Assembly: GCA_002205965.3 (NCBI GenBank)
Contig: NADL03000682.1
Location: forward strand, 682,001 to 746,000
Length of the DNA: 64,000 nucleotides
Direction: 5' to 3'
Origin: Kappaphycus alvarezii
Lineage: Eukaryota > Rhodophyta > Florideophyceae > Gigartinales > Solieriaceae
Of the stretch, positions 8,626 through 62,845 are shown piece by piece (positions within the stretch are counted from its first letter, which is position 1; the number at the start of each line of letters is the position of its first letter). The position numbers were made by a program, and so were the translations under genes. The notes under the pieces were generated by a model that saw only the letters and a program-made list of their open reading frames with translations, had not been told where the DNA came from and did no database searches.

Positions 8626-8850
8626 ATGTAAGGAAATTTTCTTGGGTTTTGATGCAAAGGCACGCTTCAGCAGCCGTCATATCCAATGCGGCCTGCTTGA
8701 TGGCTGGCCTGAGGGTTGCATTTTAGGGAGCGTTGTCCCTTCCCCATTACGGTGTCGGTATACCCTTTTCGAGTCGATTGTGGTTGTCTGGAAAACCATG
8801 GGATAGATCGGATATACCTTCGAAGAGTAAAAGACCCAAGCGTTCCCCCC
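8572..8850 (+). mobile_element. LINE-A 3' tail with inverted 5' end
   Basis: 8604-8850 matches the last codons and 3' UTR of LINE-A (compare 23236-23475): VMSNAACLMAGL-type ending, stop codon, then the tail with ATGGGATAGATCGGATATA, a GTAAAA block and a run of C. Immediately upstream, 8572-8593 is the reverse complement of 8604-8625 (22 bp, one mismatch), separated by 10 bp. The upstream arm is therefore LINE-A sequence in the opposite orientation. This is the signature of 5' inversion during target-primed reverse transcription. No target-site duplication was found. Confidence 0.8.
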
Positions 8851-9272: not shown

Positions 9273-12200
9273 CTAACCAAGGTACTTCTGAGTAGACTTG
9301 GTTTCGGCGACATCTTCAAAGGAGATGTTGAGTCTTCCAGTGAAGAGGGTTAGATGTAAAGCTTCCGTCAAAGGCGAGTCTTTCTTTGTGAGCACATCGG
9401 CTAGATTCATCTTGCCAGGTATCCAGGTGATACGATCAACATTTCCAGATTGAAACTCATACCTGATACCTGCGACATCATCTCTAATAGACCTATCTAT
9501 AGAGTTACGTTGTGTTGGTAAGGATGTAAATAGATCCTTACTGTCAACACAAAGATGAACCTTAATGTTCAATATTAGAATCTCAGATAAAGCATGAGCA
9601 ATTCCTTTAGCCTCATCAATAGCTTCAGAAGAGGCCAGAATTTCAGCAGCAGGTACCGACTTGACAGGTCTCTTAGACTTATGAGAAATCCACGATTAAC
9701 AGTGGAATATAGAGTTATGAGCGAGATCACCTACCAATAGTCCAGCAATGACACCAAGCTGCCCATATGTATCGGAACGAGAAGCATCTGCAAATGTGAG
9801 CAGAGACAGCTCATATTCCTTATTATCAGTTGGGCGCGAATAGCCAATAGAAGTCCCAAGCTTCTGCAGCTTGCGTACAACGTAGCGCTGTTCCACAAGG
9901 TCAAATACACGTGTACTGGGAGCATTCTGTTGCAAATATGACGCATAGAATGAACAGAAGGGAGAAGCAGCAGTACCGATCCAGCCAAGAGAGCTGTTCG
10001 TAGACGCGAAGAAGGACCTTTCTAGTTCGTTCAATTGCTCGTTGGGGAGCTTACGGCGTTGGCGTGTCAGGGAATGCTCAGTCAGAGCACTGAGCTTGTC
10101 ATCAGCATCAGTGCGGATAGTAAAGTCTTCATCTTGAATATTATTGATACCAAAGAAGCCTAGAGCACCAGGACCACTCGATATAGTACCCAACTTGAAT
10201 GACCTATTGAAATTCTCAAGAAAGGACTTCGCATTGTTATTTTCACCAGCCGCCAAGATGTTGTCAACAATCTTTGCAACGACAAGTACAAGATTTCCAT
10301 CAGCATGCTTGTAGAAGAGCTGCGGGATCTGCTGACACTGCACCAAACCAAGACTTAGAAAGCACTCGCCAGACTTCATCTGCTATTTGGCATTCGCATT
10401 TACAAGCCCATATGCAGCAGTAAGCAAAAGCCACAAATGCGTCGATCGCATCTTGCTCTCACGAGGAGACTTGACGTACATATCACGAGCAGCAATTACA
10501 GTCTGAAGGAAAGCTGTTTTAACATCCGCCTTGAACAATTTACACCCAAACAATGAGGCTATTGATTCCACAATCCTCAGTCCAGTCGGTGGACACGTGG
10601 TACAATCTGATGTCAAATGGTCTTTCAAGTCATCTTCGTTGCTATGGGGTGCTATTCGAGCTTTAAGCTTTAGAGAGCCATCATCGTTCTTTTTAACCTT
10701 ATACAATACATGGATGTTCACTATATTGGCATTGCTCCGCACGCCAGAATAGGGAACAACTTTGACAGTTTTGAGAAAGCTAGTCTCCTCGGTGTCGTAC
10801 GACTTGTTGAGGGTGTACTGCTCGAGCCCCTGAGCTTGATGCTTCATGAAGCTCTTGTTTACAAAGTGCTCATTCAGGAGCTTCAGGTCATTAGGCTCCT
10901 CGTCAACGACACATGGCACATTTGACTGACTAGATACAGTCTGTGAAGCATTGGTAGACATAGTGGTACTCCCAAAGTGCCAATTCTCCTCAGAAAGATT
11001 TAGGCGCTCTTGATCTCCGTCGTCATAGTTCACAGTAACGCAACCATCACGGTGCAAGTGTTTGACAGTTCCAGCATGGTGTGCTTGGTCATCAGGCCAG
11101 TACACGAGCACACGATCGCCACGTTTTACAGTGTCTTTCTTAGGTAAACAATTAGAGGTAAGTTTTTTCTCATCACTTAAGTCTGCATCATCATGCGTCG
11201 TCTGAAATGCACTTTCTTTATGTAGATGCTCACCCTTTTCTTCAGGGACCAAGACATCGTCAAGGGTAGTTTCGACCTCATCAATTGCAGTCTGAACTGC
11301 ATTGGCAAAGGAGTCAGTAGGCATAGCAAGACGAATATTTTCCAAGGATACAATGGCACGTTTGCCACCTTTGGCTGGCACTAGTACAGTGCGTGCTTTA
11401 GAGTCCACAGAAAGGACAATCTTCGGCATGGACCAAGTTCCAGTCTTACCATACCAGTCTTAGAGAAGACTTCTATCATATCTCCAGCAGCCACACTAAT
11501 TTCTCGTGTGGACTTCGATTTGAGAATCAGTGCGAGCTTTCGCTTGGCTTGCAGTTTCTCATGAGCTTCTATAACATCATCGGGGATGGCCTGTGAATCA
11601 GCATCGGTCAGTGGCTTCGTGAATCCTTTGGCAAGCTCATATGATGACATAACATCGTTGCCGTAGAGATCATTCGAGATGGCCACTGCGCGACAGGCAT
11701 GTAGGTCAGCAGCGGTGTCGGGTTCGGCATTTATGAGCTTTAGAAAAATGCTCCTCATAATACCGTGCTTGCTTTCGAGAGGATTCTTGCTATGCATGTT
11801 GGGGGTACAAGCCTGAAGGAAATGGAACGTTCATCCATATACTTTTTGAAGCTAGCAGTTGCAAATGCCTTGTCCCCTTAATAGACTCCGGTAACCAAAA
11901 CTGATTTAGCCAACAAGCCTCAAACCCAAATATTACGTCATCAATCGCTGTAGAATTTACTAAATGTGCAGCGGAGAATCTTGTCACCATGTCCATGCAG
12001 TGCAGTAGCAGCACTTCATCGAGATAAAAGTGGTCTATACAGACAACCTCATTAAAATTTCGAGACAGAGAGGATATGGACACCTTCCGGCTGGGCTGCT
12101 GGGGAGCAGTAGCTCAGCATGAGACACAGTTCTCAATCAGCTGATGCACATAATCAGCAACGGTGTCAGACCAAAGATTGTTCCGCTCAAGAAGTGGGCG

Positions 12201-13752
12201 AATATCTCTGAGAGACGCATGTCCACAGACATGACGATGTACCTTATCGACGATTTCTTTGACCTTTTTCCAAGGCCAGTCATTGTGTATACTGCCACTG
12301 AGGCAAGACAACACTGATTCATTGGCGGGTTGCGACTCAAATACGGAGATGGGTAAGTAACTGAGGAGATTGCTTTCCAAAAGTGAAAGATATTCAGGCC
12401 TCCCCTCTACCATAATCTTCAAAGCATTTCGCTCGGAATGCAAAATGTCAGAATGACGCGTCACGTTCTTGCCAATCACCCATTGACTAGAGCCATCCAG
12501 AACTAAATGTATGATAGTGACCTCAAGGCCGCTGTCCGTGCGAGCAATGAGGGAACAGAACCAATAATAGGGCTAGCGTCACTGGAATGCTTACCAACTC
12601 CATACTGCCAGTGTGTATATCCGTGGAGAGAGTTTGGAATGGGCTCAATATAAACTTTGTCATCGAGGCCAAGATGATTGCGCAGCAGCATAAGCTCAAC
12701 ATGGCCAATAGCAGAATAAGATGTACCGTTATCGACTAGGGACGTTAAGTTTGAGCTTCTCCATAGTGATCCGTTGTAAAGCTTCCACAGTTAACGCTCG
12801 TCAACACAGCATTGTTAAAAGAAACAGTTTTCTTTTTCGCTGAGCCATTCTTACCGCCATATCCAGAGGATCTACCGCTAATAGAAGCAGCAAATTCCTC
12901 TGCAGTGTCGAAGGACTTTGTTCCTTCTTTGAGAGAGCTATCAGAGTCATGGCTATCCCTCCAGTGCCCATACTTGGAGCACATGTGGCACGGATTTTTC
13001 TTCAGTGGGGCATTGTAAGGGCAGCGCATGTTGTTACTGCGTCCATGATAAGACTTTTTAGAGAAAGCACTAGCAGAGCTGGATGATAGAGCACCATTTC
13101 TAGGGGGCAACATAGTTGGAGCCTTCTCACATTGCTTGACTACCGATGCCAACTGCTTGTACGTCACCGCCTTCAAGAAGTCGTCGTTTGACGATTGGTC
13201 GGTGAATACAGTACCAATGGGTGCAGCGGCGTTTAGACAAGATACACGTTGCGAGTACTCAATAGCAGCATTGCTCAAAAGCATGAGAGCTGTAATACAC
13301 TGCAGCAACTTTGTGGTAGTAGACATCGAGTTGAACTTCGCCACAGCGGCGGAGAATCGAATCGCAAAAGACTTCAAGGACTCACTGTTGTTGCCGCGTG
13401 TGTTTAGCAAGCGATGAAAGCCTTCATACGCCTCACTGATGACAGAGAGAAAGTCTCGTTGGTACACAACATCAATGATGAGCTGAACGCCATTTTGGTC
13501 TTTCAGCTGCTCATCGAGAGCTCTGAACACAAATCAGCAGCCTCGCCATATAACTGAGACTTTAGTACAATACCTTGCACGGTAATAGCAACCTTATTGG
13601 AGCTATTCTCCGGCAAAGATTCATGAAACTCTTTCCAGTCCATTACAGCGCTCTTGTATTTTCTTGATTTCCCTTCCCTTCGGTCCATGGTGGGCATTTC
13701 GCTTCCCACGAGAAACGCGGGCGACTCGGAAGAGAGTTTGTAGCGTTAAGGC

Positions 13753-15248: not shown

Positions 15249-15284
15249 AAACAGAAAAAAACTTGCCATTTCTATTTATTTCTG

Positions 15285-15446
15285 TGTAAATGGGGGGTTA
15301 ATTTACTGTGGTGGATATGTGGGTTGGTATCCAGTAAATTTGTACCAAAGCGTAGATATCGTATCATTGTCAAGCCAATTGCGAAACCGTACGATGCGTC
15401 GAAAGCTGTGGATGGAACTCCAATCTACCAGAAGGTGGAAGGGAGG
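15285..15446 (-). mobile_element. 5'-truncated LINE-A tail inside the MITE
   Basis: 162 bp in minus orientation. It matches the 3' UTR of LINE-A copy 3 (27652-27798) and the small insertion at 48330-48394, including GGTACAAATTTACTGGATAC and the tail ACAGTAAATTAACCCCCC. The 12-bp direct repeat TATTTATTTCTG at 15273-15284 and 15447-15458 is its target-site duplication. This dates the tail insertion after the MITE. Confidence 0.9.
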
Positions 15447-15497
15447 TATTTATTTCTGATGCCGACTCTGCACTTTAAACGATTCTCAAAAAGGGTT

Positions 15498-18333: not shown

Positions 18334-19052
18334 TGATAGGGGTAAATCGGCGGGGGAAGAGATCCTCAGAACCAATTACCCTGAGAAGGAGGTGTTGCGA
18401 GCGACAAAAGTGCTACCGTGGTATTGTTGAACGAACAAAAGGTAGTGTATATAGATGAGAGGTGAGAAAGCTAAAAGCAAGTATAAAAGGGGCAGGGTCT
18501 ACCACCGACGCTCTGCGACTAGCGTAAGAAAAAGTTTTCTTGGGTCTGAAGTTGACTCTCAACTTCCTACTACTCGGGACTTGGCTTGAAGTTGTCTGCC
18601 AACTTGCTTCACCTCCACTAAAGCAAGCAGTTTACTCGGCTTATATAGACTTTTGGCTACCCAAAAGTCTCAAACAAGCATACTAATAACCACAAAATGC
18701 ATTCACGGTAATCGTGTGAACCAGAGAGACTATTAGGAGATATTTTCTCAAGGTAAATATCTAGGTGCCATACCATGCCAGCCACCCATCGGCCAGGGGT
18801 GGGAATTGATGTGGCCATTATATAGACCTTTCAGAGCTACTTGTAGTATCACCCACAACCTGGAACTGTACTGACATCTACTATGACAGCGTGTCCTAAA
18901 ATGAAAAAATCAACCGACGAATTTGCCACACTCACCCAAATTAAAAATATCTTGCAAATTCAAAAACTGTAAAAATATCTTCCCAATTCCGATACTGTAT
19001 ACAATCATGGTCCTCATCTAGATTTTTTTCGTGTGCGAATTTGCGCACATCA
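18334..19052 (+). mobile_element. solo LTR (copy 1) inserted in LINE-B
   Basis: 719 bp, beginning TGATAGGGG and ending GCGCACATCA, flanked by the 5-bp duplication GTATC (18329-18333 and 19053-19057). A reverse-complement copy of 721 bp lies at 62120-62840. TG..CA ends, a 5-bp target duplication and no coding capacity mark a solo LTR left by recombination between the two LTRs of a full element. A TATA box (TATAAAAGG at 18482-18490) sets the plus orientation. Confidence 0.88.
18482..18490 (+). promoter_or_regulatory. TATA box in solo LTR
   Basis: TATAAAAGG about 150 bp into the solo LTR, in the expected place for an LTR promoter. The second copy is diverged at this spot. Confidence 0.5.
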
Positions 19053-19554
19053 GTATCATTGTAAGTCAGTGGTACGCCGACGACCGTACAATGATTGGGT
19101 CACTTGAGGGCCTACGGCGAGCACTACGGTCCTCACGCTCTACGGTCCGTCTTACGGTCTGTATATTAACCATCAAAAGACACGCATCTCCTGGCCACAC
19201 TCTTCGCCAGCTGACCGCGCTGTTTTCCTGGCCGAGTTCCTGCTTGCAGAATGCGCCGGCAACGGTTTCGAGCTCCTCGGGGCCCCGTTGGGTAACGTTG
19301 CCTTCACGAAAAACATTCTTACGCAGCAAGGTAGAGGGGTGCCGTCGCACCCTGGTGCTGCTGGAAGGGGTCCAAGAACCCAGGGCCCGCTTCCACATGC
19401 ATCGCTTATGTGCATCCGCATGCCGGGTGCCTCACGCGTTTCGGCTTGCTGACCCTCAGCATGCCGCGGAGACTGCAAGGGAGTTCGGCTCCCTGCAGCG
19501 AGCCGCTTACGGCACGCTGCATAATGTCCCGCTCACCAACGACGCTTGGGAACA
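19053..19554 (+). pseudogene. LINE-B RT, catalytic site and thumb
   Basis: Begins within the target duplication of the solo LTR and carries on the LINE-B frame: IVSQWYADDRTMIGSLEGLR, with YADD as the RT catalytic motif at about 19072-19083. Downstream the frame is broken, and conserved text continues in other frames: YGLYINHQKTRISW-type thumb, GNGFELLGAPLGNVAFTKN, and QRAAYGTLHNVPLTNDAWE at 19491-19549. Matching order and residues in LINE-A support the assignment. Confidence 0.75.
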
Positions 19555-19607
19555 CCACGGGATAGATCGGATATACCTTCCCAGAGTAAAACACACAAAC
19601 GTTTTCC
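19555..19607 (+). mobile_element. 53-bp LINE-A tail insertion in LINE-B
   Basis: Contains only the last bases of LINE-A (ATAGATCGGATATACCTTCC, a GTAAAA block and CCC). It is flanked by the 10-bp duplication CTTGGGAACA (19545-19554 and 19608-19617). The surrounding LINE-B codons join as NDAWEQACLPL when the insertion and one duplication are discounted. A severely 5'-truncated LINE insertion is the simplest reading. Confidence 0.9.
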
Positions 19608-19716
19608 CTTGGGAACAAGCATGTCTCCCCCTCCTAGACATTCGCAGCCCGATCAGAGAGAAAAAGCAGTAATTTATCGCGGAAAGTTGGCGGAGGAACA
19701 GTTTTGAATCGCTGGA

Positions 19717-20328
19717 ATGGATCAGGTTGTCCTGGAGCACATACCTTTGGAGGAGGTCGACTACATTAAATTGGTACCGGTTTCAGATGACCCAGCTCCC
19801 GCACCTCCAAACCAGAGGCCCAACATCGCGTCTCAAACCCCCGATCTTTCTGAAAAGTCTCTGCCATCTCTAAAAGAGATCTTCACAACTCACACCCCAG
19901 TCATGTCGCATATACCGACCAAGTTCCGCGGTTGTCTAGCTGAGACGTATGCCAAGTCGATGGACCATGCAGTGAACGCTAGTCTTGCTGATAATTCACG
20001 AGCAACTCAGGCGCTCACAAAAATATTTCTGTTCCCAGCTGTTATGCTTACGAACATTTACTCGTCAGATTCCTGCTCCAGTGAATACCGGTGGCACTCT
20101 ATTACGGACAAAAATGGGGAAAGAATAGATTTATGGAACGCGGGGCACTTTAGAACACTATGGGCGCAAGCACTCGATCAGCCCAAACACCGCACGGCAC
20201 GAACTCGTTCCACTTCGGACCAGCAACAGGGTCAATATAAAAAGGGCGACAAAACTGGCCAAAGAAGGTGCGTACGGAAAGGTTGCACAAGCTTTGCGCT
20301 CGCTAGGCGTTCTACCAGCTACCAGTGA
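19717..20328 (+). pseudogene. LINE-A copy 2 ORF, N-terminal part
   Basis: 203 codons from the ATG near the LINE 5' end. It contains KSLPSLKEIFTTHTPVMSHI, FLFPAVMLTNIYSSDSCSSE and GHFRTLWAQALDQPKHRTAR. After about 20220 the conserved text moves to another frame (NIKRATKLAKEGAYGKVAQA), so this copy is frameshifted. The segment precedes the RT in LINE-A and is repeated almost unchanged at 61467-61826. No known fold was recognised in the first 150 residues. The LAKEGAYGKVAQALRSLG helix is typical just ahead of RTs of this type. Confidence 0.75.
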
Positions 20329-20927
20329 TATAATCGATGCCCTTATCGATAAACATTCCCAGAAGGCCCCTGATGAAACAACTCTAGTAAGTAAAACATC
20401 TTCTACCAATTACCGTTTCTGACCGATCACTGAAGACGAAGTCCTTGGCGCTATCAGGGCTTTTAATCCAGGATCCTCTCCCGGAGGCTCAGGTCTAAAG
20501 CCTTGCCGCCTGGTAGAATTGCTAAGATGTACATCCTCATCGGGGAATTCAGGCTTTTTGGCAGCTTTTACGAGACTTGTTAATGTTTTGGCAACTAGAA
20601 AAGCACCAGCCGTTCTCGCTCCTTGGATCGCTGGTGCTCCACTAACCCGTTGGCGAAGAAGGACATGTCGCCTATCCCAATCGCAGTTGGGGAGACGCTG
20701 CGCAGGTTGGTCGGTAGCTGCTTAATGAAGCGAGTGTCCCAGAAGGCGGCAGACTACCTCCAACCTCTCGAAGTGGGTATCGCCATAAAGTCAGGTACCG
20801 ACGCAGTCGTGCACGGAATCCGACGAGTCGTTCAGGAGTACGGCAGTGACCTAGCATACGGTTTATTGACTGTCGATCTCAAGAACGCTTTTAATATGTG
20901 CAGCAGACCCGCTTTTCTGACTGCGGT

Positions 20928-21482
20928 TGCAAAATAATTGGGATAGGTAGATCCAAATGATAATAAATAGTTCCAACTTGAATAAATAAATAAATGCCGC
21001 AATTGGACATAAAATGAGTAATGAATAGAAAACAAAATTTAATGGTAGGTGATCGAGGGGAATGTTTCGATAGCTCGAGGATGTAAAAATATTTCTAACA
21101 ACCGAGACTACTTATACTCTACACCAGGGTGAACCTGCTACAAAAATCAGGTGAGGCGTTCAATAATTTTGGTAGACATAATTCAGGCTCAGCAATAATT
21201 ATTGCAGTATTTTCCAGGTAAGCAACCATCCAGATAATAATTTTTTGGTGGAATATATTCAATAATTATAGCCTGTTTAATATAAAAACCCAACTGTTGG
21301 ACATAAAAATTATTTCACACTGAATTCAGCATAAAATAACGCCAGTGTATATAGATAAAATTATTCCTTAATGATTCACAATAAATATAGATTGTGGGCC
21401 TCAATTGAAAAATATTGTTCCACAATTCAGCATCACTGTAGGACACCGGGATAGAGATTAAAATATTTGGTCAATTTTCATA
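20928..21482. mobile_element. 555-bp AT-rich insertion in LINE-A (possible solo LTR)
   Basis: Interrupts LINE-A RT between AFLTAV and the WVSYFYANEPAFLW region. Alignment with the uninterrupted copy near 63200 shows the limits. GCGGT occurs on both sides (20923-20927 and 21483-21487), a 5-bp target duplication. The insert begins TGCAAAATAATTG and ends CAATTTTCATA, so its ends are imperfectly inverted. It has no coding frame. A solo LTR fits the duplication length, but no second copy exists in the window, so a DNA element cannot be excluded. Confidence 0.65.
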
Positions 21483-21670
21483 GCGGTGAGACATCTATTC
21501 CAGAGTTCCAGCTTTGGGTCTCATATTTCTATGCAAACGAGCCCGCATTCCTGTGGATAGGTAGTCACACAATAAGAAGCGTCTGTGGGACCCAACAGGG
21601 AGACAACCTTGGAGGCCTCCTCGTCGACCTGGTGCTGCACCCTATTATCCTCAAAATACAAGAACTCTTC

Positions 21671-21776
21671 CCATTACGGTTTCGGTATACGCTTTTGAGT
21701 CGATTGTGGTTGTCTGGAAAACCATGGGATAGATCGGATATACCTTCCAAGAGTAAAACACCCAAACGTTTCCCCC
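21671..21776 (+). mobile_element. 106-bp LINE-A tail inside LINE-A copy 2
   Basis: The uninterrupted copy at 63381-63410 lacks this segment. It contains the 3' UTR from the CCATTACGG region through GGATAGATCGGATATACC and the GTAAAA...CCCCC end. No target duplication is clear. It could be a tail insertion with a small deletion, or a product of template switching between LINE RNAs. Confidence 0.75.
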
Positions 21777-23475
21777 GTTCAGAGGAAGGGGAGAACAGAG
21801 ATTTGGCAAAGTTCTTACTTCAACTGTGGTACCACGATGACGGGTACATTATCGGGCGCCACGACCAACTCGTCAAAGCCATCGAAGTACTTCGCTCCGT
21901 GGACTCTAAAAGCCGAGGAATGTACTTGTCGCTGCCGAAGTGCACCGTCTGGTGGCCCACAACCCCTCCAGGGTCAGTACATAGTCTCTACCGAGGCGGG
22001 ATTAAGAAAGGTTACAGCGAGGGTACTTCCGTCCTGAACGCCCCCGTCGGTACTAAGGAATACCCCATATGGTCCTTTACGAACCATGTCTCATCTCTCA
22101 GACCATTCCTCGAGACCATTGCTGACCTTGAGAATAGGCAAGTGGCATTACAGCTACTGCGTAACTGTTTGGGCGTTTGCAAAGTAGACTATTTGTCGCG
22201 AGTAGTGCCCCCGTCTTGCAAGGGAGAAGGAGCGGAAGAGTTCGACAGGATGATGGAGGATTGTGTTCGAAAATTGGCAGCAGGAGTACTGGACTCGGAA
22301 GTATTCCGAGAACTCCAGCTGCCGGTCACACCCAAGGACAAGAAAAACCATCTCTTGGGATCGGACTCACCTCCGCGAAGAACATCGCGGCCGCGGCGTT
22401 CTTGGCTTCTAGCTCATCACCTAGCAAGCTTTGCAAGACCTTGCTCCCAACTCCTGTTAAGGAGCTAGGAACATATGAAGCAGCTGCAGACGCCCATCAG
22501 AGGTGGTCGACCTCTTGCCTGCCGTCTAGGATTATCCCTTTCAGTGTAATTTGCTCGCAAAAAACACCATTCCAAAAGACGCTGACTGACGAAATCCATG
22601 AAGCAGTGCAAGAACGAATTCCTCTTGGGGATTCGAGAAGGCAAGCGTTTCGCGCGTCTGTGGTCCTCCCGGGAGCTAAGAAATGGGTGTATTGTCCCCC
22701 ATGCCCCGGACTACAGACAAGCATTGACCCTCGAGAATTCTCGGTGTGGCTTCAATGCTACTGTCAAGTCCCACTTTTTCACCCTGCCACGCCATGCCCG
22801 AAAAGGAATTGCCCGGAGACACTCGATGTACATGGCGATCATCTCATGCACTGCTTGCATGGAGCCCACAGGATCAACCGACATGATCGCCAAGAAACCC
22901 TCTCGCGAAAGACCTGGCAAGAGATGCTCGTCATTCTGTCGTAGAGCCACGCCATGGTCTCCACCGCACGAGACCATACATCCAGGCAATGGGAAGCAGC
23001 GGAGGGACCGACTTTTTTGATGTTACCTTCGTGAATCCCCTCGCTTCCTCCAACAGGAGAGTGAGGGCCTTCAACCCGATGTCCTCTCTGAATGCAGCGC
23101 GAAATGCAAAGCAGAGAAGATATCAATCCTTTATCGCGACCTCCACCGGAGGTAGGCTCGTGCCTGTGCCAATCTCCACTCTTGGAGGGTGGCACCCGGA
23201 TGCATGTGCAGTGCTAAATGACGTGGCAAGGAACGTGGCCGTGAGGGCACTGGAGACGTACGGAAAGGTTCGGGGGTTTTGATGCAAAGGCACGCCGCAG
23301 CAGCCGTCATGTCCAATGCTGCCTGCTTGATGGCTGGCCTGAAGGTAGCATTTTAGGGAGCGTAGTTCCTTCCCCATTACTGTGTCGATATACCCTTTAG
23401 TCGATTGTGGTTGTCTGGAAAACCATGGGATAGATCGGATATATCTTCCAAGAGTAAAACACCCAAACCTTTTCC
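21777..23475 (+). pseudogene. LINE-A copy 2, RT catalytic site to 3' end
   Basis: Starts just before the YHDD catalytic motif (21830-21841). The thumb and linker follow (GTSVLNAPVGTKEYPIWSFT; LQLLRNCLGVCKVDYLSRVV), then AFRASVVLPGAKKWVYCPPC. The CCHC finger (CPKRNCPETLDVHGDHLMHC) lies near 22797-22856, and the catalytic stretch includes TDFFDVTFVNPLASSNRRV near 23010. The coding part ends near 23355 with NAACLMAGLKVAF and a stop. The 3' UTR carries the shared tail. At least two frameshifts occur, near 22350 and between the finger and the PD..D region. Confidence 0.85.
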
Positions 23476-23485
23476 CTCCCCCTCC

Positions 23486-24666: not shown

Positions 24667-24725
24667 CGGGGAACGTTTGGGTGTTTTACTCTTGGAAGAT
24701 ATATCCGATCTATCCCATGGTTTTC
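24667..24725 (-). mobile_element. LINE-A tail in minus orientation
   Basis: Starts right at the LINE-B stop codon. The minus strand reads CCATGGGATAGATCGGATAT, then a GTAAAA block and CCCCG. It is the LINE-A 3' tail, inserted opposite to its neighbours. No target duplication was found. Confidence 0.8.
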
Positions 24726-25426
24726 ACTAGAAGACCGAACATCTCCAGGCGACGGCTGAACCATCACCCACTCCAACAAGGACAAAAGGGGGAACTAGAA
24801 GAAAATTCCACCGTCTAAATACGGGATCCAGACAGCTTGAAAAACTTCTTAACCGTATAGTTAGGACGTGCGCAGTCCACAGTAGATACTGAACGCATTA
24901 AACTTCTTCTTCTTCTAGTGTAAGCATGACAACTTACAGACGACGACAACCAAGACAAAGAAAACTCCGGACGAACGAACTTGCCGACGAACTGACAGGG
25001 CTGCGCAGACCACGTCCCTTCGGAGACTGTAACAAAGACAGTAGATTGAAAAGCGATAGGAAACAGCGAACTTTGAAACACCTGTTCGAGTGGAAGAGCC
25101 GTCCTTACACGTCTTTCCCAGGTCGTCCCACTTGCGCTGGGGGCGCGGGACGACAATCCACTCGAAATAACCATCAGCAACAACGGTGCAGCGAGAGATC
25201 TTGAGACATGGTTGTTCCGTCCCCAGGACATGCGAGCGGACATAGATCCGGCGCCCGCGCCAAATTCAGCGCGGGCGCCGAGATGAGCGAAAACAAAACT
25301 TGAGGAGGTCAGTGAGGTAGGGAGGACGGTGGGGGCTAACAAAACGGGTCTTCCCGGGAGGATGAGGAACACTTTGAACCGCCTTCCGCACCCCCCGACA
25401 TCTCAGCGATCACAAAGGATGAGGTT

Positions 25427-26140
25427 TTGCGGGCAGTTCGCTCTTTCAAACCCGGTTCAGCCCCGGGGGGATCCGGACTTCGCCCCTCTCACGTCGAAGA
25501 GCTTCTACGGACACCCACATCTTCCTCGCAGGGGAAATTCTTGGATTCATTAACAGAACTGCTGAACGTCCTGGCTTCTGGAAAAGCTCCTACTGCCCTC
25601 GCCCCGTGGATTGCTGGAGCCCCACTCACACCACTCGCGAAGAAAGACATGACTCCGCGCCCCATTGCAGTGGGAGAGACTTTGCGACGGTTAGTTAGTA
25701 GCTGCCTTGCTACTCGGGTCAATGAGAAGGCCTCCACCTATTTCCAGCCTCTTCAGGTTGGTATCGCTACAAGGTCAGGAACAGATGCAGTAGTTCACGG
25801 TGTTCGACGCATCGTGAACAAGTTCGGTACACGCTCTGAATATGCGCTCTTGTCGGTCGACCTGAAGAATGCGTTCAACCTGTGCAGCCGTGCTTCCTTT
25901 TTTAATGCAGTCCGGAACCTCTTTCCCCAGTTGCTTCCTTGGGTACTGTATTGCTGCAACAACGACCCAGCGTTCCTCTGGACGGGATTCGAGACTATAC
26001 GGAGTGTTGTGGGTACTCAGCAAGGAGAACCGCTGAGCGGATTGCTTTTCGCTCTCGTACTCCACCCCATCGCCCTAAAGATCAAAGAGCTATTGTCGGG
26101 ATCCCCCGACGAGGACACAGGGTTAGACACTGCTTTTGGA
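25427..26140 (+). pseudogene. LINE-A copy 3 RT, fingers and palm
   Basis: Reads SFKPGSAPGGSGLRPSHVEE, then KKDMTPRPIAVGETLRRLVS (fingers), GIATRSGTDAVVHGVRRIVN, SVDLKNAFNLCSRASFFNAV (palm A, with the first catalytic Asp) and GTQQGEPLSGLLFALVLHPI (palm B). The frame runs on to 26317, but conserved text leaves it between about 26100 and 26136, where a frameshift leads into the next entry. The same residues recur in LINE-A copies 2 and 5, so this is the family's conserved core. Confidence 0.9.
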
Positions 26141-27440
26141 GCTTTGGTATCACGACGATGGCTACATTGTAGCCAAACACGAGGATATACTCAAGGTAAT
26201 CGAGGTTCTGTCTTCTCCCGAGGCCAAACGTCGTGGTCTCCATCTGGCAGTCTCGAAATGCAAAGTATGGTGGCCCACCGCCCCCTCCGCGTCGGTTCAG
26301 TCCGCATACCCCTGTGATATGCGGCAGGAATACAGTGCTGGTACTTCGGTTTTGAACGCACCAGTCGGCTCCCAAACGTTCATGGAACAATACTTCCTGG
26401 ACCATGTATACTCCCTTGAGCCTTTACTTAACGCTGTCATGGAAATCGAGGACGCGCACGCTTCATTCCAACTACTGCGCAACTACTTTGGGGTTTGCAA
26501 AGTGGGATACCTCTTGCGAGTTGTGCCGCCCTCCTGTACGCGGAAAGGGGCCGAATACTTCGACAGCTTAATCGAGAGGTGCTGCCGCACTTTAGCGGGT
26601 GGAATGCTAGACAACTGTATATTCAAGGAGCTGCAACTGCCCATTAAGGCACTACAGGAGAAGAAGCCGACCTTGGGAATCGGCCTCTCCTCCGCGCGAG
26701 ATGTCGCCGCCGCTTCGTTTCTTGCGTCTAGCGCCGCGACGCAGCAGTTATGCGAGAAGTCTTTGCCGTCCTGTGTTCAAGACCTGACGCAGTACGAGGA
26801 CGCTACAGCCGCCTTTACCACATGGAGCGCCTCTTGTCGACCCTCAGAACGAATTCCGTTTAGCAATTTCTGCTCATCCAACCCACCATCGCAGAAGAAG
26901 CTAACAAATGCAATTCATATGGCTGTGCAAGAGGCCTTGCCGCTCGGAAACATCCGCACCCGCGCCTTCCGCGCTAGCATGTCCCTCCCCGGTGCCAAAG
27001 GCTGGGTCTACTGTGCACCTTGCCCTGGATTGAGGACGCACATCAAGAGCAAAGACTTTTCCGTGTGGTTCCAGTACTTTTGCCAAACCCCTTTATTCGC
27101 TCCAGGTACCCCTTGCCCCAAAGCAGGATGCCATGAAATGCTGGATATCTACAATGACCACTTGCTACATTGTCGCTTTGGCTGCGAGCGGAATACTCGC
27201 CATAACAACCAGGTGACTTTACTGGGGAAGGACCTTGCAAGAGCCGCCCGACGTCCATTCATCGAACCTCGTCTACACTACCAAAACAGGACGAGGCCGG
27301 ATATCAGGGCGATGGGAGCCGCCGGTGGCACGGATTACTTCGACGTAACCTTTGTCAACCCGCTCGCTCCCTCCCACGCAAGAGCCAGGGCTTTCAACCC
27401 ACGCAGAGAAGCAGCGGAAATACCAAGGGTTCGTTGCTGA
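26136..27440 (+). pseudogene. LINE-A copy 3 RT catalytic motif to RLE domain
   Basis: Opens just before WYHDDGYIV, the RT catalytic site (YHDD at 26148-26159). Then come GTSVLNAPVGSQTFMEQYFL, the LRNYFGVCKVGYLLRVVPPS linker, AFRASMSLPGAKGWVYCAPC, a CCHC finger near 27115-27175 and RPDIRAMGAAGGTDYFDVTF near 27296-27345. The last of these fits the RLE pattern R...PD-X13-D. An insertion or deletion near 27400 moves the end (FVAELPGRNRLVPVPISTLG to LVAGLPSSLW, stop at about 27661) into another frame. The C terminus matches the R2-type order of finger followed by nuclease. Confidence 0.9.
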
Positions 27441-27798
27441 GCTGCCTGGGAGAAACAGGCTGGTTCCTGTTCCCATCTCAACGCTTGGAGGATGGCATCC
27501 GGCGGCGTTCTCCGTCGTCAAGGAACTCGCGAGAACCGTTGCCACCCGCGCAATGGAACGGTTTTCGAAGGTTAGAGGCATTCTTTTACAGCGGCACTCC
27601 GCTTTGACAGTAACCTCCAATGCCGCTTGTTTGGTGGCTGGCCTCCCTTCCAGCTTGTGGTAGATTGGAGTGCCATCCACAGCTTTCGACGCATCGTGCG
27701 GTTTCGCAATTGGCTTGACAATGATACGATATCTACGCTCCGGTACAAATTTACTGGATACCAACCCACATATCTACCACAGTAAATGAACCCCCATG

Positions 27799-28407: not shown

Positions 28408-28479
28408 TGACCCGGATGGGATTTGAACCCACAACCTTTTGATCTGGAGTCAACTGCGCTACCGTTGCGCCACCAGGCC
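28408..28479 (-). tRNA. trnW(CCA): tRNA-Trp (CCA)
   Basis: 72-nt cloverleaf on the minus strand. The 7-bp acceptor stem is GGCCTGG with CCGGGTC and discriminator A. The D arm has a GCGC/GCGC stem and an AACGGTA loop. The anticodon loop is CTCCAGA, giving anticodon CCA, and the anticodon stem has one weak outer pair. The variable loop is five bases, and the T arm is GTGGG/CCCAT with loop TTCAAAT. There is no intron, and CCA is not encoded, as usual for nuclear genes. Internal A and B boxes are present, and a TTTT run for Pol III termination lies about 15 bases downstream on the minus strand. Confidence 0.95.
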
Positions 28480-29680: not shown

Positions 29681-30180
29681 CGGTGTCGCGTTATTCCGTG
29701 ACAGTACTATTGATACAAACACCACGTGGCCGACGTGGAGCATCCTATTCTAGTAAAAATAGGATGGTGCAGTAAAAATAGATTACATTTTCATCAGTTT
29801 TATATTCAGTGGCGAGACGCTACTCCGCTTGCTGGCTGAAAGCTATCCCAACTCCCCAACCTACTGCCAAACAGATTCTACCCGTCCCGACTGGAGCTTC
29901 ATTCCGAAATTCAATAGGAACAGATCACATCCAACTGCGTTCAATGGCTACCACCTTTGGGTGTCGTGGCCTTTTTACAAAGAACAGGACATGGATGTAT
30001 TTATCAGCACTTCCAATTCATTCCATATTACCCCATCGTCGGAATTGATATACAAGAGGCAACACGTGGGCTTCATTTACTCTAACAGAAAAGCTGCCTC
30101 ACTGTACCCAGTCAACTTGTATACTAGTTTGCATATATATGAAATATTGATGCAGGCCCTGATGCCACTTTACTACTATA
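29681..30180. other. no supportable gene
   Basis: A frame of about 124 codons (29829-30203) has no ATG until its middle and resembles no known family. It may be a relic. Otherwise nothing was recognised. Confidence 0.35.
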
Positions 30181-30275
30181 TCGAATATATCTTCCAGCAG
30201 TAAAGACACCCAAAACTTCCCCCTCTACCGGAGAAGATCCAATTTATCTTCCAACAGTAAAAACACCCAACATTT
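30181..30275 (+). repeat. two LINE-tail-like microrepeats
   Basis: Two tandem-spaced segments, at about 30181-30223 and 30236-30275, each read ATC(T)TCCA.CAGTAAA.ACACCCAA followed by TTCC. They resemble the tail unit of 30725-30769 and the end of LINE-A. No target duplication is clear for either. Confidence 0.55.
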
Positions 30276-30714
30276 CCAGCCCCTATCACCAAGAAGAGGA
30301 GATTTGCTGCTTGCTTGTTCGACTTTTAGCGAGAAACAGACTCTTCGCACATGTCACGGTACCATAACAATGGCCCCTTGGAGAAAAAGTGATGGCTTTG
30401 CCATGTCCTGAACAAATCATAGACTTGTGCATGGCAAAGGCCTCTTCGGAGACCATGTCTGTCTCTTATGACACATGGAGTCGATCTTACTCAAAAGATC
30501 TTTGTAGAGGCATATACTAACAACTGGGATGTTTTTTGTGAAGGCCACCACATGTCCTGATCCTGATGTCGCAATATTCCTAACAGCTAGCCTCACTTTT
30601 ATGAAGAGGACGGATCGCAGTTCAAAATTCTGAGATTAAATTTGTCAAATTGAACCTGCTTCTCAAAGTTTTCAGGCCTGTGGTCGGAACTGACTAGGCA
30701 AGGTGGTCAATCAC
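30276..30714. other. no supportable gene
   Basis: Short ORFs only. An imperfect inverted repeat pairs GGCTTTGCCATG near 30393 with CATGGCAAAGGCC near 30431. No promoter or RNA function can be claimed. Confidence 0.35.
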
Positions 30715-30724
30715 TTGAATTGGA

Positions 30725-30769
30725 TCGAATTTATATCTTCCAACAGTAAAAACATCACAACCTTTCCCT
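30725..30769 (+). mobile_element. 45-bp LINE tail insertion
   Basis: Flanked by the perfect 10-bp duplication TTGAATTGGA (30715-30724 and 30770-30779). The inserted segment reads TCGAATTTATATCTTCCAAC, then AGTAAAAACATCACAACC and TTTCCC. It is thus the LINE tail alone, in plus orientation, and the shortest insertion with a proven target duplication here. Confidence 0.85.
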
Positions 30770-30779
30770 TTGAATTGGA

Positions 30780-33694: not shown

Positions 33695-33845
33695 GTGCGA
33701 AAGGGGAAACTTTTTGGGTTATTTTAATGCATAAAAGATGTGGCCGGTTATATATAGGCCGCTTATGCGTTAGGGTGGATAAATCATCAGTGATGGGTAA
33801 CACTACATGACATTTCTTACAGGGCCGGCTCAATGCCAGCTACTG
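33695..33845 (-). mobile_element. LINE-A' tail (minus)
   Basis: Matches the 3' end of the LINE-A' copy at 34070-35484: the minus strand ends ATGCATTAAAATAACCCAAA followed by AAGTTTCCCC, and the upstream end lies within the last codons (GIEPAL). It is diverged by many substitutions, so it is older than the copy next to it. Confidence 0.75.
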
Positions 33846-34069
33846 CTTTGTCTTTCCTGATAAAAATTACTCTTTTCAAATTTTATGCCAAATTACAGAA
33901 ACAATTCCCCTGGTCTCTGAACAGTGATTACTAGTATCTTTCCGTTGTATCAATCTCCTCACACAAAGCACGGTTTGTCCTCATATGAGGATGAAACTAT
34001 TTGTAATTTTTTTACAGTAAGATTACAGACTTTAAAAGCTTTTCAGCCCATAAATACTTTTTTAAAAAG

Positions 34070-35484
34070 GGGGGAATTTTTGGGTTATTTTAATGCATGG
34101 AAGATGCGGTCGGTTATACCCACGAGGCTAATACTGTACGTTATGCGGGATATGTCCTCGCTGATGGGTAACACTACAGTAAATGACCTTGCTTACAGAG
34201 CCGGCTCAATGCCGGCGAGCAGGCATGCCGCGTTGGACATGACGGCGGCAGCAGCGTGCCTTTGAGTAAGCACCGCTCTAACCATCCCATAGGTCTCTAT
34301 CGCTCGAACGTCCACGTTCCGCGCGACATCGGTTAGCACCGCGTACGCGTCTGGGTGCCAGCCTCCGAGGGTGGATATTGGGATAGGCACAAGCCTCCCT
34401 CTAGTAGCAGTCGTGAGCAGTGGTTCATACCTTCTACGTTTGGCGGAGATGGCTGCGTTGAGGGAGGTGAGTGGGTTGAAAGTACGCGCTCTCCTATTGG
34501 AGGGCGCAAGAGGATTGACGAACGTGACGTCAAAAAGGTCCGTTCCTCCGTTGCTACCCATTGCCTCTATATCCGGCCTTGTGCGATGAAGCCCCTGTCG
34601 CCGCTCGATAGCCGGATGACGGGCTGCCTTCTGCAGGTCTTGGGCGAGGAGGACGAGTTGACGGTCGTGTCGTCGGGTGCGGTGCCCACCATGCAGGCAG
34701 TGCATGAGGTGATCCCCGTGGCAGTCGAGGACCTCAGGGCAGTTTGGGCATGGGCATGGCGTGTCTGGGGCGAAGAGCGGGACCTGGAGGTAGTACTGGA
34801 GCCACACTGAGAACTCACGGGCGTCAATGTTGGTCTTGAGGCCGGGGCACGGAGGACAATAGACACATTCCTTTGCGCCGGGAAGGTCCATAGAAGCCCG
34901 GAAAGCTTGCCTTCGTTGGTCGCCGGGAGGGATCTCTTCTTGAACTGCCGCATGGACTGCTTCTTTTAGTGTCTTTTGCGGAGGTGTTTTGCTTGAGCAA
35001 AATACACTAAAGGGTAGGAGTCGTGAGGGCAGGCAGAGGGTCGACCATATTTGGTGGGCGCAGACGGCATCATTGTACGTCGTGAGATCGGTGATGGGTG
35101 CCGGCAAGATACCGGTGGCCAGCCTGTTGGCAGCTGCGCTGGCGGCCAGGAAAGCGGCCCCCGCGATGCTTTTCGCCGATGTGAACCCTAAACCGAGGGT
35201 GGGTTTCTTAGGGTCCTGGGTTTCACCGGTAGTTGGAGTTCTCGGAATATATCCGAGTCCAGTACTCCTCCGGCGATTGTCCGGAGACATCGCTCTATCA
35301 TGGCGTCAAACATAGCGGCGCCCTCCGCCGTGCAAGAGGGTGGCACCACACGAAGGAGGTATCCTATCTTGCATACCCCAAAGCAATCGCGAAAAAGCTG
35401 AAAAGCCACTTGCGTATTGTTAACGTCTATGACAGCTTCGAGGAACGGTTCGAGGGACTGGACGTGAGTGGTGAGGAATTTGTT
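34070..35484 (-). mobile_element. LINE-A' copy, 5'-truncated
   Basis: Minus-strand LINE flanked by the perfect 13-bp duplication CTTTTTTAAAAAG (34057-34069 and 35485-35497). It begins inside the linker after the RT (VQSLEPFLEAVIDVNNTQVA) and runs through AFRASMDLPGAKECVYCPPC, a CX4CX9HX3C finger (CPCPNCPEVLDCHGDHLMHC) and RPDIEAMGSNGGTDLFDVTF. It ends in NAACLLAGIEPAL with a stop near 34193. The 3' UTR ends ATTAAAATAACCCAAAAATT followed by CCCCCC. The RT is absent, and a frame change near 35240 leaves two overlapping frames. This is a clean 5'-truncated, target-primed insertion. Confidence 0.93.
34193..35230 (-). pseudogene. LINE-A' zinc finger and RLE coding segment
   Basis: Long open frame of about 345 codons covering the finger and endonuclease regions described for the element. 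It reads PTLGLGFTSAKSIAGAAFLA at its start and GRLVPIPISTLGGWHPDAYA near its end. It is the least damaged endonuclease domain in the window. There is no independent promoter, and it begins mid-protein because the insertion is truncated. Confidence 0.85.
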
Positions 35485-46713: not shown

Positions 46714-46724
46714 CCTGTCAAGTG

Positions 46725-46818
46725 GGGGGGGGAGGTTTGGGTTATTTTAATGCATGGAAGATGTGGTCGGTTATATCCTCGAGGCTAATACGTTATGCGG
46801 GATAAGTCGTCGCTGATG
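46725..46818 (-). mobile_element. 94-bp LINE-A' tail insertion
   Basis: Flanked by the 10-bp duplication CTGTCAAGTG (46715-46724 and 46819-46828). The minus strand ends ATGCATTAAAATAACCCAAA and then a run of C, as in the LINE-A' copy. A 5'-truncated insertion of the tail only. Confidence 0.9.
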
Positions 46819-46828
46819 CTGTCAAGTG

Positions 46829-48329
46829 TGCCGTACTGTTTCTGCAGGGGAGCGGAAATTTCTTTCGCGAGGGTAACCCTGGTCGCTCACCTTAGCCGAC
46901 AATAGGGTACCGATACTACTCTGTAAGTGCAATGGCTCGGAGGTTTCTTTAGCCAGACCCCGATGAGTCGCTCACCTGAGTCGACTCTTGCAACCACAGT
47001 GTTCCAACTCAGATGTGACCATACACGCTTATTTGATACTGACTGTCGCTGCTGTCGGTAAGAAAGGAAGATGAAAGTTTCGAGCTTAAGTATTAATGTC
47101 CTCCGGTAATTAATGCCCTCTGGAACCCGATAGTCACTGCAGCCTGTCGTGAGTGAGTAGAAGCATTTACATACGGAAACCTTTTTTTAATGAAACAAGT
47201 AGGGGTTCCGAGCTAGAGGTCGAGCCAAAATGATCATTTTTATGTACTTCCAAATGTATTACGACACGGACGACAAATATATGACACATTTCAGTGTCTA
47301 GCGATTCAAACTTAGAAAAGGAGGTTTGCATTTTGGATCAGTCATCACTCATGCATCGAAACGTAGGAAAAGGGGTGTCCTAATGGTTAAGAGGTAGGTT
47401 CGATGTCATTCCTAGGTATATGTAGCAGTTGTAGATCCTTCCGCACGGTGTGAGTGCAAGTTCATAGATCTCCAAGCCTTCACACCACTCGCAGTAGAGC
47501 AACTTTATTTTCTCCAAAGTAGCATTTGTAAAGCGGAGAGCATAAAGGAAAAGGATCAACTCAGTAGAAGGCTGGCTCGAGTGCAGCTAGAAGGCAGGTT
47601 GTGTTGGACATGACATCGGCCGCGAAGAGGATTTAACGGGGGTTTACTTGATTGAGTTAGTACGAGTTAGTCTATGGGAAAAGAACTTACCCACCACTAC
47701 TACACCAGCAGCAAGGTGAAGTATAGACCTTGTACAGACAAATCAATGGCTGTGTTTTTAAATAGCACATACTTGAATGGGTTTGCATGCTTAATTTTCC
47801 TGCCAGGAGTAATCACTATGGGTTGATTCACTACGAATGGTGAAAAGGTTACGAGTCCTGTGAATTTTCTTTCAAACCATTAGGCAGGATCTACCCGCCT
47901 CGACATGCTTTTGCATGACAGTCCCACGGATATTTACGTACGTTTAAATAGCGCTCCTAGCCAAGCTCCTTGCAATTTCGGCTATCATGGCGTTGGCGAC
48001 GATGTACTAACTCCAAAAGGTTGCCGAAGCCACAGCTACGAGCCTTTTCCTGATAGAAGATAAAACGAACGCGTAGAACCTTCAATGCTCGCAGTTGATG
48101 TTACAAACGAGGACGCCAACAGGTTGATGGAAGTTGATTTTCCGTTCCAAATTTGTAAAAGAGTCCAGGTGAACCTTTGAGGAATCTACAAGACCTTCTT
48201 GACCTCCTCAAATATTTTAGCAAAACACAAATATTATTAATTTTATATCTGCAAATATTTATTGATTTTATTTATTTAGACGATTCTCGGGGCGATTGCG
48301 CTGAAACATCCAGGGCGCACTAAGCTTTA
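46829..48329. other. intergenic with a LINE-A scrap
   Basis: No gene supported. Around 47585-47640 the minus strand reads like the LINE-A end (VMSNTTCLLA), a very short relic. At about 47370-47415 a tRNA-like start with A-box and B-box words lacks room for an anticodon arm. Confidence 0.45.
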
Positions 48330-48394
48330 TCGGTACAAATTTACTGGATACCAACCCACATATCTACCACAGTAAATTAACCCCCCATTTACAC
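48330..48394 (+). mobile_element. 65-bp LINE tail insertion
   Basis: Matches the 3' end of LINE-A copy 3 (GGTACAAATTTACTGGATAC to ACAGTAAATTAACCCCCC). The 7-bp duplication AGCTTTA lies at 48323-48329 and 48395-48401. It has the same tail unit as the one inside the MITE, in the opposite orientation. Confidence 0.85.
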
Positions 48395-48915
48395 AGCTTT
48401 AACGTACATGGATTCTGCTCTACAGCATGTACCAGTCGGCGGCAGCATGCCAGAAACAAAAGTCGTTGTGGAGACCTGTAAATTCCTTGCGAACTCTTGA
48501 ACGTATTATTCCTATATTTTTACAGCCGGGCGACTAATTTTGCTTCCAGCTAGGACGGGTCGCGTCATTTGTTTTCCACGCTGGCATCCGTTGTGGTTCA
48601 TAAAAGTGCTGATTTTGATTCGTAATCCAGCTGAACAAGTTAGTTGCCTTCCAGTACACAACCGCATATCATCCTTACTACTACGGCGCTTCCGAGACAT
48701 CTTTGTCATTCTTTTCCGTCGCGCTACGTATTTTCATTCTTCAGTTGTCGAGCGATCAACATTTCTAGCCTTCGCAGAGTGGTACAGGGTAATCTTTAAA
48801 ACGAGCATTTTGCAAATAGCCATTTCACATATCCGTGAAGCATTGTTGGGGATCCCTCTTCTATCCTACTAGGCTATCGGGGTTTGCATCAGCTCGAAGT
48901 GCTCTAACGGAAGGC

Positions 48916-50271
48916 ATGAATTACTGTATCAATGAGAATGGAAAAATAACGCAAGAAGCGGATGATGATGTTAATCGACAAATTAATGCTTCAAATAATT
49001 CGCTGGGTATGGAACTAAAACATCACAGCACGGGATCGGCACAAACTAGCTCAATGCGCGGAATTTGCGAGCGAAATGGAGCGAGATCCTCCAGACCGCT
49101 CAGGAAAGCAAAATCAGGGACATTGCAGGACAAACCAAGTTACATTGCACCTACCGCAACTCACTGGAAGACAGATGACATCGGTACTGTCCAAAACTCA
49201 ATGGGGAGTACCCCAAATTACAACCGAACAGGTCGGGAGATCTGTGCCAACACTAGTCATTCAAATGGGATTCGTGACGGCGAGGTGGACCTTCTTTTTC
49301 CTGCTACAAGTTGTTCGTCAGTAAGAGATCCTAGCGAAAGCCTATCTCAGGAATGTTTTGGTCGAAACAGTTTTCTGCAAGATGGTAACGATTTTCAGGA
49401 TGCCATTCGCCGCATAATCATTAATGATCATCTTAGATCAGCCCATCCTGTGACCACTTCGCAGAGAACATCTGCAGGTCATCCTCAGCGTCCTAAGGAA
49501 GAAATTGATACGTCTCATGAACTATCCGTTGCTGAACATTTGCGTGGCCTTCACCAAAGCATTTTTTCCGATTCCAGCAGGACTGATGAATTCGCAGTTA
49601 ATCAAGGCAACCCCGCGGATATTGCTGCTAAGGGTTTGAAGCATGCAGCACCGAATCCAAAGGTTCATTTATCTGCGCAAAGACTGAATTGTCTAGGAAC
49701 GCGGGACAGCATTCATGAAACAGGAGCAATACGAAATGACAGCAATGGACTATTTCAGAGAAATGCCAATAGCAGCGGAGGACATACCGCTCCATTTGTT
49801 CAAGCGAGTCCATACAGGCAGGTTCCAGTGCACAACTTGCTCCCTGAGCTATTACTGGGATCTAGAAACAGGCCGGTTTCGAATCGAACCGAAGTAATCG
49901 ACTTGTGTGGGGATGATGATGTTATCCAGGAGGGGCTTGAAGGGAAACCATTCACAAATTTCCATGTGCTGGATGTGCTATTTGATCCTGGATACAACGG
50001 AGTGAGGCCTCCTCAATTGTTCTCGTTGGGGAAGAATCAACGGGATAAAAGACAGATTAACTACTTGGCAGAAGGTCGGCAAATTACAGGGCCAAGTAGG
50101 GACTCAACAAGGAGCATTATGCAGCCCTCGAACGCAGGGCGTTCCGCAACCGGAGATCGCGGAGAATTATCGAAAAATGAGCCCGTTGAGTCACTGCTTG
50201 TGAGACTAGAAACAGAATTGCGCGAGGATGAGTTCGTCCGCAATCTCTTATTCAATCAGACCACGGAATAA
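48916..50271 (+). CDS. unrecognised polar protein with SUMO-interaction-like motif
   Basis: 451 codons from the first ATG in the frame. The frame is open for 27 more codons upstream, but without an ATG, so an upstream exon cannot be excluded. The protein is polar and low in hydrophobic runs, rich in Ser, Asn, Thr, Arg and Asp, and mostly predicted disordered by eye. Residues 326-335 read EVIDLCGDDD, which fits a SUMO-interaction motif (hydrophobic V-I-x-L followed by acidic residues). The C terminus (VESLLVRLETELREDEFVRN) looks like an amphipathic helix. It is not similar to any transposon protein in the window, and no catalytic motif is seen. A nuclear regulatory or scaffold role is inference only. 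No clear TATA or AATAAA was found. Confidence 0.5.
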   Translation: MNYCINENGKITQEADDDVNRQINASNNSLGMELKHHSTGSAQTSSMRGICERNGARSSRPLRKAKSGTLQDKPSYIAPTATHWKTDDIGTVQNSMGSTPNYNRTGREICANTSHSNGIRDGEVDLLFPATSCSSVRDPSESLSQECFGRNSFLQDGNDFQDAIRRIIINDHLRSAHPVTTSQRTSAGHPQRPKEEIDTSHELSVAEHLRGLHQSIFSDSSRTDEFAVNQGNPADIAAKGLKHAAPNPKVHLSAQRLNCLGTRDSIHETGAIRNDSNGLFQRNANSSGGHTAPFVQASPYRQVPVHNLLPELLLGSRNRPVSNRTEVIDLCGDDDVIQEGLEGKPFTNFHVLDVLFDPGYNGVRPPQLFSLGKNQRDKRQINYLAEGRQITGPSRDSTRSIMQPSNAGRSATGDRGELSKNEPVESLLVRLETELREDEFVRNLLFNQTTE

Positions 50272-62840: not shown

Positions 62841-62845
62841 CTCTT

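Follow-up and report, generated by a model that had tools for sequence, protein, structure and literature searches.

The genome of the red alga Kappaphycus alvarezii contains very short insertions that consist only of the 3' tail of long interspersed nuclear elements (LINEs). We analysed these inserts in a window of 64,000 nucleotides (contig NADL03000682.1, positions 682,001 to 746,000, forward strand) and in searches of the whole genome (336,021,096 bases in 884 contigs). Our analysis confirms that the tiny tail-only inserts are real and much more frequent than expected if truncation points fell smoothly at random. They look like by-products of the LINEs' own copying enzyme rather than an independent mini-element. 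They probably arose when target-primed reverse transcription inserted the 3' end of R2-like LINEs and ended very early, at preferred, family-specific points.

The first-pass annotation of the window described five tail-only segments, each with direct repeats at both ends. All five repeat pairs are exact, as expected of target-site duplications (TSDs). The 53-bp insert at 19555-19607 (plus strand) lies between 10-bp copies of CTTGGGAACA (19545-19554 and 19608-19617) and the 45-bp insert at 30725-30769 (plus strand) between 10-bp copies of TTGAATTGGA (30715-30724 and 30770-30779). The 94-bp insert at 46725-46818 (minus strand) is flanked by the 10-bp repeat CTGTCAAGTG, or CACTTGACAG in element orientation (46715-46724 and 46819-46828), the 65-bp insert at 48330-48394 (plus strand) by the 7-bp repeat AGCTTTA (48323-48329 and 48395-48401), and the 162-bp insert at 15285-15446 (minus strand) by the 12-bp repeat TATTTATTTCTG (15273-15284 and 15447-15458).

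The same annotation derived all five tails from a single LINE, a source that we reject. The tails belong to three R2-like families: 19555 and 30725 to family A, 48330 and 15285 to family B, and 46725 to family C. The family A tail reads about ATATCTTCCAASAGTAAAACACCCAAACSTTTCCCC in these and other copies, that of family B reads CACATATCTACCACAGTAAATTAACCCCCCATTTACAC, and that of family C CACATCTTCCATGCATTAAAATAACCCAAA..TTCCCC. By eye, the three have a pattern in common: CTTCCA or CTACCA, then GTAAA or ATTAAAA, then ACCC. Two of the inserts had also been said to start near TCGGATATA, which is only loosely true. The 19555 insert begins 12 nt before TCGGATATA, and the 30725 insert, which represents a subfamily with CAGTAAAAACA, begins with the diverged form TCGAATTTATA. 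The 48330 insert begins with TCGGTACAA, a sequence different from TCGGATATA.

Related sequences link these inserts to longer LINE copies and to an empty target site. The family B inserts at 48330 and 15285 are 98% and 95% identical to 27741-27795 and 27642-27795, respectively, and the family C insert matches two family C tails at 33700-34216. The 19555 insert lies within an open frame of another LINE. At 38 of 40 scored loci (430 first-look candidates) the sequence continues for 13-17 bases across the join of its flanks, and two of these 38 empty loci were aligned base by base. The insert is present at the window's own locus and at a near-identical locus on contig C462. For 30725-30769, flanks and insert are matched together at two other loci (C462 and C144), and the tail is covered by 31 more matches.

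The tails are abundant. Exact genome-wide matches number 5,346 for the family A core (control pattern 10), 246 for its AAAAACA variant (control 0), 1,598 for the family B core (control 4) and 1,338 for the family C core (control 0). The family A sample consists of 92 of 100 listed places, the last 8, on contigs C15-C16, being left out. Merging of cores with an identical 95-nt stretch gave 85 distinct rows, 82 of them independent by 3' flank. The family B sample holds 40 of the first 43 listed places and the family C sample the first 40 of 100. For the A3 subfamily, 40 of 100 listed places were taken, with apparent tandem arrays skipped; 37 were kept and 30 are independent. The window and eight loci added by similarity (L001-L008) are excluded from all counts. 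The 5' end of each copy was placed by aligning it leftwards from the core with longer members of its own family, using the third-best reference. Ends were then counted in 10-nt steps over the copies still extending, after merging copies with the same 3' flank.

The 5' ends of family A are concentrated in a single step. Only 5/82 copies end 0-9 nt upstream of the core and 1/50 end at 20-29 nt, while 27/77 end at 10-19 nt, a class that corresponds to inserts of about 35-55 bp (Fisher p = 4e-6 against 20-29 nt and 6e-6 against the other neighbouring step). Further upstream the counts are 5/49 (30-39 nt), 4/44 (40-49), 6/40 (50-59), 1/34 (60-69), 1/33 (70-79), 6/32 (80-89), 1/26 (90-99) and 7/25 (100-109). 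The first-pass annotation had stated that a smooth distribution without a peak near 45-55 bp would leave only ordinary truncation. In our sample the distribution is not smooth, and in family A it peaks near that length. Extrapolated from contigs C1-C14, the peak class amounts to about a third of exact family A copies (27/82, some 1,760) if the sample is representative.

The other families have end points of their own. Family C shows a weaker peak in the same step (1/40, 8/39, 1/31 and 10/30 in the first four steps; p = 0.04 for 8/39 against 1/31 and 0.01 for the other neighbour). Family B counts 4/39 and 2/35 in the first two steps and peaks at 50-59 nt (9/24); 9 of its 19 supported inserts, one pair of which is a duplicate, measure 76-86 bp. 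The preferred places are 10-19 nt upstream of the core in family A, about 9-19 and 29-45 nt in family C, and about 44-61 nt in family B. Copies at the family B position include L100, L103, L110, L111, L113, L115, L120, L126, L127, L130, L133, L136 and others. The A3 sample (6/30, 6/24, 2/18) is too small to judge. Taking the best instead of the third-best reference yields 5/82, 26/77 and 2/51 in family A and leaves family B nearly unchanged. In family C the 30-39 nt step falls to 6/30 and the 40-49 nt step rises to 7/24, so only the 10-19 nt step is stable; family C end points beyond about 70 nt have few references behind them.

Starts inside the core were sought with a pattern from its 3' part, which has 2,685 matches genome-wide. 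A hand count gave 55 places on contigs C1-C15, and the 16 of these outside the intact-core list were read by eye. One (L221) is clearly an insert, about 28 bp long and flanked by a duplication of its own, and another possibly starts inside the core (L228). Two are complex (L219, L227), and the other 12 have a changed core, at least four of them resembling further short copies. Four extra loci on C19 and C23, outside the count of 16, comprise three longer copies with a changed core and one short copy. Starts inside the core are rare, and inserts shorter than about 35 bp are therefore few in this sample.

Target duplications accompany many of the sampled copies. Among copies with a boundary under 280 nt, a repeat score of at least 8 is found at the predicted edge in 49% of 76 family A, 47% of 40 family B, 30% of 40 family C and 19% of 36 A3 copies. 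The control with a swapped 3' flank gives 3%, 1%, 1% and 1%. The duplications, called with a cut-off of 8, are 8-17 bp long, with a median of 10-11. The copies correspond to the 3' end of a longer LINE between TSDs, as do 5'-truncated LINE copies, with TSDs called in part of them. In the 15 supported short copies of family A the insert measures 33-53 bp when overlap is counted to the target. Their duplication-defined starts lie 1-24 nt upstream of the core, mostly 7-19 nt, and do not form the excess of identical start points that the first-pass annotation had proposed as a test.

The insertions favour a loose target motif. Of the supported copies of families A and C and of A3, 33/55 have A immediately before the duplication and 35/55 have C one position further out; the duplication itself has C as its first base in 35/55 and T as its third in 33/55. 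The choice of the longest repeat can sharpen such edge motifs, though we judge it less able to yield the C that lies two positions outside the duplication. When a few bases of leeway are given, a CA^YY edge is found at 8/20 tail-only and 17/35 longer copies, compared with 77/1080 random positions (Fisher p = 5e-5 and 2e-10). Tail-only and longer copies do not differ in this respect (p = 0.58), and their common target motif indicates the same machinery. Family B duplications begin with A in 12/18. In each family the favoured target bases prolong the tail end, CCCC being followed by CTT and CACA by A, as would be expected if the RNA end pairs with the nicked strand.

The 5' junctions carry microhomology. 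Target and LINE sequence overlap by at least 2 nt in 27% of 51 copies, compared with 7% of 339 shifted controls. Microhomology is also frequent at the junctions of truncated L1 copies, as the accessible part of that report states (PMC4245944). For truncated R2 copies, the available text describes frequent microhomology at the 5' junction, and it also reports non-templated bases for R2 (PMC2718515).

The window holds several LINE copies, whose proteins point to R2. The family B LINE at 25340-27440 (plus strand) has two overlapping open frames, a predicted reverse transcriptase (Pfam RVT_1, E 3.5e-7) followed by a region with CCHC, RH and PD..D motifs. The best matches of the LINE reverse transcriptase in the PDB are the R2 proteins 9nl3 (E 1.7e-7) and 9dou (E 2.1e-7), and RVT_1 is also matched at E 5.4e-10. 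R2 structures are again best with L246 as query (E 1.3e-6 and 2.1e-6). In the region after the reverse transcriptase, CCHC, RH, E and RPD..D are recognised by eye in that order, which we take to be the order of restriction-like endonucleases (RLEs). The LINEs thus appear to carry an R2-type reverse transcriptase, placed by best PDB matches and RVT_1 rather than by a tree against other RLE clades, among which the accessible text of PMC4640811 names CRE, R4, NeSL and HERO. They do not behave as R2 proper, which inserts at one 28S ribosomal DNA (rDNA) site: the sampled duplications are unrelated, with a CA^YY edge in 25/55, a judgement made from these duplications and not from a comparison of flanks with rDNA as such. 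A C-terminal frame of 370 amino acids from the family C LINE (34193-35305, minus strand) has 111 scored genome matches of 22,984 first-look candidates. Many of these lie in long open frames, and some LINE copies may therefore be intact. Sequence searches of the C-terminal region against solved structures returned no related match and one unrelated match at E 1.4. AlphaFold models of the LINE protein (pLDDT, the model confidence score, 34 and 40) are too poor for use.

These observations can be combined in a simple scheme. The LINE endonuclease would nick next to CA^CTT-like sites, and the RNA end (CCCC then CTT in families A and C, CACA then A in family B) would pair with the nicked strand. 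The enzyme would copy the tail it holds and then often stop. Joining of the free complementary DNA (cDNA) end to the target would often involve 1-4 bases of microhomology. The resulting short copies, which have no recognisable promoter, are presumably dead ends.

Several results weigh against this scheme. No stable hairpin explains the end point of family A: the tail region gives no consensus fold, and its z-scores in three folds are +1.5, +0.4 and +0.4. We do not rely on the folds of the other groups, which include a long-range consensus pairing in A3 (-10.8; 11 sequences, several of them duplicates), a consensus hairpin in family B (-6.5), single family B tails at z -2.4 (3/200 shuffles) and z -0.9, and a family C tail at z -1.1. 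Family B has no peak at 10-19 nt, and no universal 45-nt footprint is shown. Among the 33 short family A rows (ends under 20 nt), 15 have a duplication with a score of at least 8; two of these 15, L050 and L083, are doubtful, their repeat resembling tail sequence. Between duplication and homology, 17/75 supported copies have 1-8 unexplained bases. One row of the family A 0-9 nt class (L054) resembles a chance match of the core, and the putative endonuclease is assigned by motif only. Exact genome-wide counts with 8, 16 and 24 additional upstream nucleotides (2,555, 1,607 and 937; drops of 37%, then 42%) show no peak on their own, since matches are also lost to mutation and to differences between subfamilies. 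With a loss at the second step as large as that at the first, they do not decide the question. The corresponding sample counts are 38, 24 and 11: the first ratio equals the genome-wide one (0.63), the second is 0.46 vs 0.58. By reading, the 14 sample rows lost at the first step are 9 truncations and 5 mutations. A longer family A pattern (1,592 matches genome-wide) was not used.

The enzyme may instead have met a template that was already short. LINE RNA would then be cut or trimmed until only the part bound by the enzyme is left, and this remnant of about 35-55 nt would be inserted whole. The scarcity of inserts below about 35 bp is consistent with the need for a recognition tail, and the near absence of ends at 20-29 nt fits a protected segment. 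For vertebrate R2 proteins, pieces of the 3' untranslated region (UTR) of 68-112 nt with 5 nt of primer homology are described as supporting priming in the accessible part of PMC12180492. In avian R2 the last 68 nt of a 3' UTR do so, and a very short template is therefore plausible for an enzyme of this kind. The scattered starts overlap the target by microhomology, however, as with cDNA stops, and the preferred length varies by family. We consider a short template unlikely. It is likewise unlikely, in our estimate, that each LINE family makes or leaves a discrete short tail RNA that is sheltered by its reverse transcriptase and inserted in bulk. In that case, no single cargo of the family A enzyme would be commoner than a promoterless template of about 45 nt. 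Survivorship, in which selection or deletion removes long insertions and leaves short ones in excess, fits the position of the short insert at 19555 in an open frame where a long insert might do more harm, although the frame is that of another LINE. Under survivorship, short copies should be in steady excess, with no near-empty class at 20-29 nt between two populated ones; we regard it as very unlikely.

A genuine minimal short interspersed element (SINE) would be a tail unit that has a promoter and forms a lineage of its own. Such a unit would explain the very many copies and the length peak, and the family C nearest-neighbour test leans towards it in a small sample (0.32 vs 0.20 expected, p = 0.11; 9 short and 31 longer copies). 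A fixed 5' end was not found, however, and an internal promoter would hardly fit into 45 nt. At the gathering threshold, Rfam has a single match in the window, a tRNA-Trp gene elsewhere. Nor do the tail-only copies of family A, the other family covered by the lineage test, form a separate lineage: a tail-only copy has another tail-only copy as its nearest neighbour in 0.34 of cases, with 0.35 expected (p = 0.52; 28 short and 52 longer copies), and no alignment column separates short from longer copies at p < 0.01. Short copies come in several tail variants, all found among longer copies too; one of these (G core, CGGATAT, AAACG) occurs in 2/33 short and 7/52 longer rows. We reject a SINE with a fixed start. 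The first-pass annotation had offered frequent early stopping and a minimal SINE-like unit as its two explanations. Early ending at preferred positions is supported; the SINE-like unit is not, because the starts are scattered, family A has no separate lineage and the target motif is common with longer copies. A minimal SINE is disfavoured and extremely improbable.

Further tails are present in the window. A family A insert of about 109 bp at 21670-21779 (plus strand) lies in a LINE open frame, is missing from the other LINE copy at 63388-63392 and has no clear TSD. A short family A tail at 24668-24725 (minus strand) has homology about 28 nt upstream of the core. Longer family A 3' ends are found at 8591-8850 (plus strand; end of the open frame, 3' UTR and tail; 89.6% identity to 23221-23466) and, by sequence comparison, at 23221-23478 (plus strand). 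The family B 3' UTR and tail (27642-27795, plus strand) lie downstream of the LINE open frame 26127-27440, and the family C 3' UTR with its two tail copies (33700-34216, minus strand) downstream of the frame 34193-35305.

Some tails adjoin one another head to tail, as in the two tandem family A tails at 30177-30277 (plus strand; sequence comparison) and at L183. At L073, next to L227, a tail is inserted in a tail array, part of which lies within its duplication. In L008, L041 and L079 an inverted tail piece directly follows the tail and creates a palindrome. Tail copies at about 12.7-kb spacing at G000:C3 (about 29752-80808) resemble a large tandem array. Two LINE copies in the window, 18334-22381 and 61199-64000, differ by an inverted segment (18334-19052) and extra inserts in one of them. 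Other features of the window are the tRNA-Trp gene (28408-28479, minus strand), open frames that by eye resemble pieces of a Copia-type polyprotein (9696-13533 and 54710-59230, minus strand), and a 483-codon open frame (48820-50271) that follows a family B tail insert at a distance of about 425 bases and has no Pfam match at E 0.001.

LINE truncation is commonly viewed as an accident whose end points spread smoothly. In this sample they cluster and differ among families with a common tail motif, and the 20-29 nt class of family A is nearly empty. Clustered ends open the choice between a stopping enzyme and a pre-shortened RNA to testing, with genomic data as the first resource. They also suggest that an R2-like enzyme of loose target preference needs only a very small template. 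Thousands of inserts about 45 bp long may be missing from repeat libraries or misnamed in them. Among the papers listed on red-algal RLE LINEs, Kappaphycus repeats and very short LINE or SINE inserts, no title or abstract opening describes such inserts; most subscription papers lie outside this scope.

Several known systems offer comparisons. tRNA-derived SINEs that share a LINE tail use that tail for mobilisation in trans; unlike them, the tails described here show no head, fixed start or lineage of their own. R2 retrotransposons supply the closest reverse transcriptases in the PDB, and their truncated copies likewise carry microhomology at 5' junctions, as the available text reports (PMC2718515). 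Unlike R2, the sampled copies are dispersed at CA^CTT-like sites rather than at one site, and their tails are shorter, with concentrated end points and, in family A, no predicted stable fold. Truncated copies of human L1 and zebrafish L2 have similar microhomology at their 5' junctions, while a peak at about 45 bp is not described in the accessible part of that report (PMC4245944). The nearest described case is that of 5'-truncated RTE elements in Lepidoptera and other insects, which, according to the available text, leave 3'-end-only copies between 6-12 bp duplications and can be misidentified as SINEs (PMC2887409). Unlike those copies, the peak class in Kappaphycus consists of 3' UTR sequence only.
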